A stretch of DNA of 64,000 nt, from NCBI RefSeq assembly GCF_041381155.1, contig NC_091140.1, forward strand, positions 21,976,864 to 22,040,863, read 5' to 3'. The notes beneath the pieces were generated by a model. It did no database searches, had not been told where the DNA came from, and saw only the letters and a list, made by a program, of their open reading frames with translations. Positions 3,701 to 9,700 of this stretch are shown in pieces (position 1 is the first letter of the stretch; the number at the start of each line of letters is the position of its first letter). The position numbers and the translations under genes are program-made. Source of the DNA: Argopecten irradians. Lineage: Eukaryota; Mollusca; Bivalvia; Pectinida; Pectinidae.

Positions 3701-6700
3701 AACCACCTCAGCCATTCTAAATCGTAATATTTTTTTCAGGGGAGACTACCAAACACCAAAATCTCGCTCAAACGCCAATTTGGCAAATTTGCATATTCAT
3801 AAATTTCCTTTTAGCGACGCCACTGTCTATAGACGTGTACAAGGATTATATTTAATGACATATGAAACAAAAATAAAGTAAATATGGTTGTGTGTTGAAT
3901 TAATCTCCTCCTGTGGGTGCAAGGCGCGGGGTTGGTACAAAATATTGAGGACCTTTGCCCTCACCCCCATTACTTTTCATCTTCCCACGCCACTGTTCTC
4001 GTTGGATTAGTTTTGCGTTTGACACAAGCGTAAAACACTGCTCTTAACATAGTGTAATAATTTTCACTTTGGTGGTTGTAAGGTCCAAAACTTACAAAAA
4101 ATCGATTCATTTGCATTTTTTCATTCATTTCTCTTTAGGACTAAGATTTCAATTATAAGGTTTGGGTTGTATACCAAGAATTCAGTTTAAATTCGACATA
4201 TTTTTGAAAAACTATTGCCATGTTGGCATTTATATAAAACTATCATTTCAGGGTATCGACTTTGCCGAGTTTACCATACACATGGCTGTAGGAATAGTGT
4301 TCGTGTCGTTCGCGGGCTATGCGGCACTACGTTTTTATTACAGAAATATGGACTCACTACAAAACAAGGATCCTCCTGAAATAGCAGGTAATGTTTGGAA
4401 GCTATGAATTATTATCTTTAAGTATCTAACAACGGAATCGATCACAGTCTGCAATTTCTATCGATTTATTGTATTAAATATAAAACTAAAAATGTCTCGT
4501 ATTTGTATATTTAGTTATCTGTTCGCGTGGGTAGGTATTGATTATTAAAGAATAGATTTTGATTTTGTTGAGGTTATGAGGGTATAATGATAATGGAGCA
4601 CGTGTAAATTATGCAACCCCAGCCTTATATTTTCAGTTTTTCACGTAATTGAATATTAATTATTCTCGCGACAGTTGCATATTTTTTATTAAAATATCCA
4701 TAATATTTTCTCTGCCGTCATCGTCAACGAATTCGATTAAACAGTTAATTGAAATCGAGTCATTCATGTTCCCACCAAAAGTGGGGTCATGACCCCACGT
4801 TGCAACGCCAGCGACTTTTCCCGTGACAATAGAATCGCAGCACGTGTACAATCATTATACACTGATAATGATAATACTAGTAAGCATGGTTATTGAGTCC
4901 ATGTTAGTGCAAACTGTAAATATTGACGGTTATTTGCTAGCGTAACGTCATATTTTTTCGGAAAAATGGCGTAAGGTTTGCTTACAAAATAACGACGTCA
5001 TATTCGGAATCATTCCACAAGAAAGATAACTCTCTTATTTTATTAATATTATACTAATATCAGTTCAAGCCCAAGAATCATGAAACAGCCTTAGACGTAC
5101 GTTTTTTGTTTGGTCAATGAAAATGAAATACCTTTACACGTATTTGTAACGTCATCTGTGATTGGCTGAGTCTAAACTTAAGACTGTTTTGGACTTAAGA
5201 CAGTTCATCATCTTGGGGCCATATTTATATCTATTATTGTTATACTTCTACAGAACTGAAACACGAGATAGAACTATGGGCCAGAATTATATCTATTATT
5301 GTTATATTTCTATAGAGCTGAAACACGAGATAGAACTATGGGCCAGAATTATATCTATTATTGTTATATTTCTATAGAGCTGAAACACGAGATAGAACTA
5401 TGGGCCAGAATTATATCTATTATTGTTATATTTCTATAGAGCTGAAACATGAGATAGAACTATGGGCCAGAATTATATCTATTATTGTTATATTTCTATA
5501 GAGCTGAAACACGAGATAGAACTATGGGCCAGAATTATATCTATTATTGTTATATTTCTATAGAGCTGAAACACGAGATAGAACTATGGGCCAGAATTAT
5601 ATCTATTATTGTTATACTTCTATAGAGCTGAAACACGAGATAGAACTATGGGCCAGAATTATATCTATTATTGTTATACTTCTATAGAGCTGAAACACGA
5701 GATAGAACTATGGGCCAGAATTATATCTATTATTGTTATACTTCTATAGAGCTGAAACACGAGATAGAACTATGGGCCAGAATTATATCTATTATTGTTA
5801 TATTTCTATAGAGCTGACTGAAACACGAGATAGAACTATGGGCCAGAATTATATCTATTATTGTTATATTTCTATAGAGCTGAAACACGAGATAGAACTA
5901 TGGGCCAGAATTATATCTATTATTGTTATATTTCTATAGAGCTGAAACACGAGATAGAACTATGGGCCAGAATTATATCTATTATTGTTATATTTCTATA
6001 GAGCTGAAACACGAGATAGAACTATGGGCCAGAATTATATCTATTATTGTTATATTTCTATAGAGCTGAAACACGAGATAGAACTATGGCCAGAATTATA
6101 TCTATTATTGTTATATTTCTATAGAGCTGAAACACGAGATAGAACTATGGGCCAGAATTATATCTATTATTGTTATATTTCTATAGAGCTGAAACAGAGA
6201 TAGAACTATGGGCCAGAATTATATCTATTATTGTTATATTTCTACAGAGCTGAAACACGAGATAGAACTATGGCCAGAATTATATCTATTATTGTTATAT
6301 TTCTACAGAGCTGAAACAGAGATAGAACTATGGCCAGAATTATATCTATTATTGTTATATTTCTACAGAGCTGAAACACGAGATAGAACTATGGCCAGAA
6401 TTATATCTATTATTGTTATATTTCTATAGAGCTGAAACACGAAGATAGAACTATGGGCCAGAATTATATCTATTATTGTTATATTTCTATAGAGCTGAAA
6501 CAGAGATAGAACTATGGCCAGAATTATATCTATTATTGTTATATTTCTATAGAGCTGAAACAGAGATAGAACTATGGGCCAGAATTATATCTATTATTGT
6601 TATATTCTATAGACTGAAACAGATAGAACTATGGATATCTATTATTGTTATATTATAACTGAAATGAGATAGAACTATGGGCCAGAATTATATCTATTAT

Positions 6701-9700
6701 TGTTATATTTCTATAGAGCTGAAAACAGAGATAGAACTATGGGCCAGAATTATATCTATTATTGTTATATTTCTATAGAGCTGAAACACGAGATAGAACT
6801 ATGGGCCAGAATTATATCTATTATTGTTATATTTCTACAGAACTGAAACACGAGATAGAACTATGGGCCAGAATTATATCTATTATTGTTATATTTCTAT
6901 AGAGCTGAAACACGAGATAGAACTATGGGCCAGAATTATATCTATTATTGTTATATTTCTACAGAACTGAAACACGAGATAGAACTATGGGCCAGAATTA
7001 TATCTATTATTGTTATATTTCTATAGAGCTGAAACACGAGATAGAACTATGGCCAGAATTATATCTATTATTGTTATATTTCTACAGAGCTGAAACATGA
7101 GATAGAACTATGGGCCAGAATTATATCTATTATTGTTATATTTCTATAGAGCTGAAACACGAGATAGAACTATGGGCCAGAATTATATCTATTATTGTTA
7201 TATTTCTACAGAGCTGAAACACGAGATAGAACTATGGGCCAGAATTATATCTATTATTGTTATATTTCTATAGAGCTGAAACACGAGATAGAACTATGGG
7301 CCAGAATTATATCTATTATTGTTATATTTCTATAGAGCTGAAACACGAGATAGAACTATGGCCAGAATTATATCTATTATTGTTATATTTCTATAGAGCT
7401 GAAACACGAGATAGAACTATGGGCCAGAATTATATCTATTATTGTTATATTTCTATAGAGCTGAAACACGAGATAGAACTATGGGCCAGAATTATATCTA
7501 TTATTGTTATATTTCTATAGAGCTGAAACACGAGATAGAACTATGGGCCAGAATTATATCTATTATTGTTATATTTCTATAGAGCTGAAACACGAGATAG
7601 AACTATGGGCCAGAATTATATCTATTATTGTTATATTTCTATAGAGCTGAAAAAGATAAACTATGGCCAGATATTATATCTATTATTGTTATATTTCTAT
7701 AGAGCTGAAACACGAGATAGAACTATGGGCCAGAATTATATCTATTATTGTTATATTTCTATAGAGCTGAAACACGAGATAGAACTATGGGCCAGAATTA
7801 TATCTATTATTGTTATATTTCTATAGAGCTGAAACACGAGATAGAACTATGGGCCAGAATTATATCTATTATTGTTATATTTCTATAGAGCTGAAACACG
7901 AGATAGAACTATGGGCCAGAATTATATCTATTATTGTTATATTTCTGCAAAACTGAAACACGAGATAGAACTATGGGCCAGAATTATATCTATTATTGTT
8001 ATATTTCTATAGAGCTGAAACACGAGATAGAACTATGGCCAGAATTATATCTATTATTGTTATATTTCTATAGAGCTGAAACACGAGATAGAACTATGGG
8101 CCAGAATTATATCTATTATTGTTATATTTCTATAGAGCTGAAACACGAGATAGAACTATGGGCCAGAATTATATCTATTATTGTTATATTTCTATAGAGC
8201 TGAAACACGAGATAGAACTATGGGCCAGAATTATATCTATTATTGTTATATTTCTATAGAGCTGAAACACGAGATAGAACTATGGGCCAGAATTATATCT
8301 ATTATTGTTATACTTCTACAGAACTGAAACACGAGATAGAACTATGGAAGAAGGCCGCCGCCCGAGTATCGGTAGCTACCAGAGAGGAAAGCATCATGAA
8401 GGCGTTATTCTTACAAAAGTCAGTCCAACGTGAGAACAATCTTGTAAGGAGGTTATACAGAAAGAAGTAAGTGTGCAAACGATGAGACTCAGGAAAAGGG
8501 GAAATTACAGATTTTTAATTAAAGTCGCAATATACTAAATAGCTGCAAAAAGTTTAAGGTTAGTCATTTGGTTAGTGAAGTCATTTCATGTATGACAAAT
8601 TATGTCAGTAGTATACCAATGTCTTATATCAGATCGTTATGCTTAGACAAAGAAAAGGCACGTTATACAGTGTTTTCATTGCAATGTCAAATACACTTCA
8701 TTTACAGTAGAAGCCGTTAGATTTATATTTTCTTTAGAAACGCATTATTTGGAGGTATGGAAAAATAAAGAAAGCATGAAGTGACGATTTTGTATTTCTT
8801 CCAGCAAATATCGTTAAATGTTATTTTGGAAAAATTATATAGATGATAATGACAGCAGGGAATAAGATGTTTCTTTTGTTTGCAGACGCTCAGATATTAA
8901 AGATTTCCAACAAAATGTTCAAGATCTGGAACGAAAGGTAACACCTAAGTAACACATCTCTTATTACATGAGTGCGCATTTCTAACAAAACGAACGGAAA
9001 TGACTGCTTATGCACAGCACAAGAACCAGAAAGTGCAATTATGACTCATTGAACTGTACAAAAAATCTAACTCTATCTTTCTAGTCATCTAGAACTTAAA
9101 TCGCTGTATCGATATAGCAATGTTTTACTTTATAACTTACTACTTAAGAATTTATATTATTGTTATGTGTTTGCAGTATTTTATCACAGACCAGTGGCTG
9201 TTAATAAAGAGCAGTTTTGTACTCGCTGTCGCCATCCTCTTTTTCTTCCTTCAGTCGTTCTTGGACGGCATACATCTCAATATAGGTAAAATATATTTAT
9301 GATACAGTCTACACAGTGCATCAAAACGAAATGATTAGCAACACGTAGTAGAGTAGATAAATCAAAATCTACTCCATACCACGAGAAGGTACTGAATGAG
9401 GTCTGCTGTAGATAATTTTTTGTGGTAGTATTATTTTAGCACTTTTCATGCCAATATTTTGACTTTAAAATATGATATAGCTCTATTTGTATTTCTGTAT
9501 ATTGTTCATACAGCCATTATGGTGAAATTCATTGTTCTGGTGTGTTCAAGATCATGTTTGCGCCAAAATCTGATTGTGCAAAAATAAGAATGTTTACAGT
9601 AACCGTGTACAGTAAAAGGTCGGGAAAGGATTGAAAAGTCTTTAAGTAAATAAGTGTCATATATCGACCTTTATGTCATAAAAGTTTCAGTTTAATCAAT

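Follow-up and report, generated by a model that had tools for sequence, protein, structure and literature searches.

In OCA2, the P protein gene of the bay scallop Argopecten irradians, a segment that joins the last part of intron 11 to the start of coding exon 12 is repeated in tandem 51 times, and the gene appears to splice to the last copy. The array lies in a stretch of 64,000 nucleotides from contig NC_091140.1 (assembly GCF_041381155.1, forward strand); this whole stretch is the window, and all coordinates refer to it unless stated otherwise. We consider it probable that the array is a boundary-spanning minisatellite, a so-called mirage, which arose in a repeat-rich genome and does little harm to splicing, since the copy that yields the shortest exon is the one preferred under exon definition.

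The deposited protein identifies the gene and agrees with a 19-exon structure. The exons within the window form an open frame whose translation is 100% identical to protein P0001 over the whole query, and a 19-exon join of window and upstream exons, using only the last acceptor, reproduces P0001 exactly, letter for letter. The source label of P0001 is 'P protein-like [Argopecten irradians]', which confirms the OCA2 assignment made in an earlier note drawn from the sequence alone; the exon that the note called exon 7 is coding exon 12 of 19. OCA2 was found at one locus: a protein search of the genome returned at least 18 matches, all inside it (genome match counts here and below are lower bounds; very common words were skipped). 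The features on which the argument depends are as follows.

268..13895, plus strand: the part of OCA2 within the window, coding exons 5–19.
4252..4387, plus strand: OCA2 coding exon 11, whose final G is completed to GAA (Glu) by the two bases that open exon 12.
4388..8321, plus strand: OCA2 intron 11, 3934 nt, which holds 50 decoy units; an AG acceptor is present in 48.
5216..8347, plus strand: 51 tandem 62-bp units, each comprising 36–38 nt of the intron 11 end (AG included) and 24–26 nt of exon 12.
5216..5277, plus strand: first unit, with the ancestral acceptor CTTCTACAG/AACTG (the slash marks the splice junction), common to the last unit.
8286..8347, plus strand: last unit, carrying the functional acceptor.
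8322..8466, plus strand: OCA2 coding exon 12, the array exon, 145 nt, with the donor GAA/GTAAGT.

The array is compact and largely homogeneous. Tandem Repeats Finder (TRF) reported it as one array at 5216–8347 with a period of 62 bp and 95–97% matches in the main rows, within 3 bases of the 5213..8348 first proposed; the roughly 50 units estimated earlier became 51 on counting, and 24 of the 51 are identical to the consensus. A division into 36 intronic and 26 exonic nt, as the earlier note had it, falls within the range we found, and the exact split is ambiguous because the two array edges (CTTGG on the left, CTATGG on the right) share TGG. The AG is kept in 49 units, the functional one among them, and is missing from units 24 and 45. 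Thirty-nine units carry a derived TAG/AG, while the first and last units have in common a C at −9, a C at −3 and an A at +2, so that the edge units are ancestral and the inner units derived. One synonymous change (GAA/GAG) does occur in the 26 exonic nt, as previously noticed; because decoys also carry frame-breaking indels, we see no sign of selection keeping the codon. Units 23, 24 and 40 (6588–6690, 7619–7676) contain clustered small deletions that may be residual sequencing error.

Neither insertion nor misassembly accounts well for this anatomy. A unit query against the genome gave at least 50 matches, all in the OCA2 array, so that within the A. irradians genome the array is found at this locus only. 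The idea that an introner or some dispersed repeat landed at the exon has nothing found in its favour and can be practically dismissed, given where the matches lie and that the unit includes OCA2 coding sequence. The array is known from one assembly and one haplotype, which, together with the clustered deletions, would suit an assembly artefact that inflated the copy number or produced the whole array. We regard this as highly improbable: the variants that distinguish the units are shared and ordered, the gene on either side is undamaged, and comparable arrays occur in other genes.

Protein conservation indicates that the functional acceptor is the one in the last unit. It alone is continuous with the remainder of exon 12, and its junction reads AA CTG after the G of exon 11, giving GAA. 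The peptide across this junction is conserved: of the 120 homologues listed, 116 match a loose motif, and for at least one of the 116, P0017, the match lies away from the junction. As read from sequence, the conserved protein and the exact match to the deposited one support the earlier proposal that the last of the acceptors is the one in use.

Splicing to any other AG-bearing copy would truncate the protein. Joined to the upstream exons, all 48 of the 48 AG-bearing decoys hit a premature stop, as the earlier note had foreseen. Its further suggestion, that the stop is the TAG of the next unit's own acceptor, is true of 29 decoys and fails for 19, of which 12 end at another TAG and 7 at TGA. 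The decoy stop closest to the end of exon 12 lies 142 nt before it. As a rule, stops more than ~50 nt upstream of the last junction lead to decay, and decoy products should therefore be degraded. A decoy is also unlikely to become a separate exon, since the units lack a good donor: the sole GT in the 51 units, ATTGTTATA, makes 4 of 9 donor consensus matches (OCA2 donors make 3–9 in the same scoring, the lowest value coming from exon 5, where the donor was placed one base off). Two special kinds of acceptor were ruled out, a recursive splice site, in which GT directly follows the AG and restores a donor, by the AA, AG or AC that follows the AG here and by that sole GT, and a NAGNAG tandem acceptor, which has a spacing of 3 nt, by the 48–66 nt between copies. 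Among 59 candidates, no protein matched the 96-aa array frame at E 0.01.

Truncation by every AG-bearing decoy would also be expected of a regulated poison switch, in which the decoys are retained as a means of turning OCA2 off, splicing to them bringing early stops and decay. Several observations make this very unlikely. An intron joined to an exon tends to reach a stop soon anyway, and the decoys bear indels, with two having lost the AG. Poison stops are not general either: of 16 decoys in the related SLC6 array at L059, 8 stay in frame and meet no stop, and the same holds for 4 of 15 in the array at L065. A query with the truncated isoform returned 4 proteins from 5 candidates, none with a decoy tail, and 90% clustering could hide one.

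Exon definition is the selector of the last acceptor that the anatomy best supports. From the donor of exon 12, the last acceptor defines an exon of 145 nt, and the decoys would define exons of 207, 269, 331 and so on up to 3213 nt. At intron sizes such as the 239–3934 nt of the OCA2 introns examined, splice sites are expected to pair across the exon. An exon defined across itself, from its donor to the nearest acceptor, would favour the 145-nt form over the decoys; with no good donor in the units, no decoy would form an exon of its own; and products that leaked through would meet an early stop and should be cleared. The functional AG is preceded by a 29-nt AG-free stretch that fits inside one unit, and each unit may therefore be a self-contained acceptor.

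The choice of the last acceptor is read here from genomic DNA and the deposited protein, and some observations weigh against this account. The 130 nt before the functional AG contain no match to the branch-point motif YTNAY. The last acceptor scores 8.7, most decoys 7.9, five decoys 11.0 and two decoys 9.4, by a small matrix of OCA2 sites in which one acceptor was misplaced by one base; strength is rejected as the selector because the last site is not the strongest. Finally, predicted folds leave the last acceptor less accessible than several CAG decoys.

RNA folding offers another possible selector, in which the derived, palindromic acceptor TCTATAGA pairs decoys with one another, hides them and so helps the last, non-palindromic acceptor. 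Model energies agree with such pairing, with predicted duplexes of −10.2 kcal/mol between derived acceptors, −6.2 between ancestral and derived, and −5.0 between ancestral ones. In three window settings the 39 TAG/AG decoys are predicted to be less accessible (means 0.130, 0.029 and 0.027) than the last acceptor (0.194, 0.102 and 0.050). When 84 single changes were compared in model arrays, C-3T, which makes the palindrome, ranked third and second lowest in predicted access, and two units fold with a z-score of −1.89 against shuffles. Against this, a single unit folds much as its shuffles do (z 0.18), the last unit with its exon gives z 0.96, and the palindrome needs just one transition. Mean predicted access of CAG/AG decoys exceeds that of the last acceptor in two settings (0.368 and 0.164 versus 0.194 and 0.050) and falls below it in one (0.088 versus 0.102). 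Because CAG decoys are often the more accessible, the last site does not stand out by its folding, and RNA structure as the sole selector is rejected. We hold self-sequestration of the decoys to be quite unlikely as the explanation, and the rank of C-3T is compatible with a minor helping role of self-pairing.

The array probably arose by tandem duplication at a single-copy OCA2, in which the tail of intron 11 was copied together with the first 24–26 nt of exon 12. The initial duplication probably used 2–3 bp of microhomology, which the TGG at both array edges would fit. Unequal exchange or slippage may then have expanded and homogenised the array and left the edge units ancestral. Selection is not required to account for the ancestral last unit, because the first unit, ~3 kb inside the intron, shares its acceptor; exclusion of array edges from homogenisation explains both.

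By its border-spanning unit, its unit length and its ancestral edges, the OCA2 array matches the mirages, a known kind of repeat. Tandem duplications of intron/exon borders were described in amphioxus globin genes and named mirages after the Adh3 case; their units measure 10–72 bp in Adh3 and 150–160 bp in globins, and BflGb6 carries 6 and 3 units in two haplotypes (PMC3087553). BflGb9 is also among the mirage globins, and TnC and PGBD5 are further amphioxus examples (PMC3902484). Normal splicing and an array length that is unstable, both from haplotype to haplotype and in somatic cells, also belong to the description of the kind. Like these, the OCA2 unit spans an exon/intron border, its 62 bp are of minisatellite size, and its edge units escaped homogenisation, as array edges are reported to do in amphioxus (PMC3087553). 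The scallop case differs in its mollusc host and in its 51 copies, as against the 6 and 3 of the BflGb6 haplotypes, an unusually high number relative to the mirages for which the cited texts give one. It also differs in how splicing is known: in amphioxus, reverse transcription polymerase chain reaction suggested that splicing was undisturbed (PMC3087553), while in the scallop the deposited protein fits only the last acceptor, as judged from DNA. No mollusc mirage was found in the open-licence literature searched, where a search directed at minisatellites and splice sites in scallops returned no paper.

Other repeats that supply or adjoin splice sites are less similar. The human gene IFI6 (6-16/G1P3) contains a minisatellite with multiple splice donors and yields three mRNAs (PMC4526556); here too a minisatellite provides many splice sites, yet they are donors and are used, whereas OCA2 repeats an acceptor and gives no sign of alternative use. 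Published accounts of duplicated splice signals resemble the OCA2 array in treating such signals as raw material and in the early stops (PMC3087553, PMC2809761). Unlike the cases they describe, OCA2 gained no new intron; its old intron became longer and kept its position. Earthworms, lophotrochozoans like the scallop, have minisatellites in the first intron of metallothionein genes, and the part of that report concerned with them describes no splice border inside the unit, unlike in OCA2 (PMC12783039).

OCA2 itself contains a second repeat of this kind, at the other end of an exon.

345..407, plus strand: second OCA2 boundary repeat, in which two 31-bp copies, 100% identical, cover the donor that ends coding exon 5 (268–368).

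Its first donor copy gives the P0001 protein, and the second, outer copy would lead to an immediate TGA. TRF finds five minisatellite clusters (period >2) in OCA2; three lie within intron 1, clear of its splice sites, and the other two are the splice-site repeats at exons 5 and 12.

A pilot survey suggests that such arrays are not confined to OCA2. We searched the genome for three Pfam families, PF00083, PF00209 and PF00063, and examined 9 of 9, 51 of 121 and 10 of 82 matches, respectively, chosen by match ranking and not by outcome; L051, at a contig end, was left out of the counts. Counting as boundary repeats those arrays that reach into the exon match by at least 6 nt and beyond it by more than 12 nt, we found them in 10 of 60 matches of PF00083 and PF00209; a boundary repeat is also present in 1 of 10 matches of PF00063 (myosin). 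Thus 11 of 70 exon matches bear a repeat that copies an acceptor or donor, as do 2 of the 19 exons of OCA2 itself, for 13 of 89 exons or exon matches in all. Seven copy acceptors (L035, L048, L056, L059, L065, L070 and L073) and three copy donors (L032, L075 and L080), and a short donor repeat lies at the myosin match L096. On inspection the copied splice site adjoins conserved coding sequence. The weakest of those counted are L070 (21 bp × 3, with ~4 exonic nt) and L032 and L096 (few exonic nt); L034, which ends within a pyrimidine tract, L039 and L061 were rejected on inspection.

Three of these arrays serve as examples. L059 has 18 copies of an 87-bp unit before an SLC6 exon (L059 1–1571), L048 has 12 copies of a 60-bp unit upstream of an exon beginning MDRLADPQVWLDAA, and at L032 1721–2385 a near-consensus donor (GTAAGTA) stands in 13 tandem copies where a sugar-transporter exon ends. 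The matches are partly related. L059 and L065 (regions of C1:18704502 and C1:18732145) are neighbouring SLC6 genes in opposite orientation with the same 87-bp acceptor array in 18 and 11 copies, and we count them as one event because the unit is shared and the loci lie 28 kb apart; L075 and L080 represent a single exon border, found in each of two genes. Since the scallop has many SLC6 genes, pseudogenes may be among them.

The frequency of these repeats raises the possibility that, in the scallop lineage, splice boundaries are preferred sites of repeat formation or places where selection keeps repeats, and that the repeats are not just leftovers that the genes tolerate. Two of the five OCA2 clusters and the pilot matches would agree with this. 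Exon edges, however, are no richer in tandem repeats than their flanks: on the acceptor side the repeat fraction is 0.118 at match ends versus 0.112–0.176 in flanking bins beyond 20 nt, and on the donor side 0.065 versus 0.050–0.115, in a small sample that includes related genes. For this reason the boundary repeats look tolerated, and we judge a preference for boundaries to be decidedly unlikely. Tandem repeats are abundant in any case, making up 23.5% of the window; in another scallop, tandem repeats are the largest repeat class at 21.7% (PMC10225492). Boundary arrays elsewhere in the repeat-rich A. irradians genome probably arise as we propose for OCA2. A bolder reading holds that the bay scallop genome contains thousands of splice-site arrays, of acceptors or donors in 2 to ~50 copies, since its spliceosome or its generation of repeats treats boundaries unlike those of other animals; that the arrays amount to a natural large-scale assay of splice choice; and that the OCA2 decoys were partly silenced by drift to a self-pairing acceptor. 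We consider it unlikely.

Tolerated boundary arrays would still be informative. Choice among near-identical splice sites is usually studied with engineered duplications, and OCA2 presents a natural case with 49 AG-bearing acceptors. At the pilot rate, the scallop would be a test bed for exon definition, for the clearance of splicing errors and for the way introns evolve when their boundaries are duplicated. Should that rate hold genome-wide, a phenomenon that the searched literature describes for amphioxus would turn out to be common in a phylum far removed from it. At such exons, gene prediction can fail, and so can the mapping of short reads.

The rest of the window holds further tandem repeats. 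A Pfam scan of eight other window frames gave one match, an MBT repeat at 34217–34537, and minisatellites lie near this gene at 27635–30855 (~158 bp) and 37314–38599 (~48 bp). An array at 19242–22296 has a 155/156-bp unit that contains the near-palindrome GATGGC..GGCCATC. At 56885–59180, a 47-bp unit is repeated 49 times and all three minus-strand frames are open for 786–822 codons, most likely a repeat artefact and not a gene.

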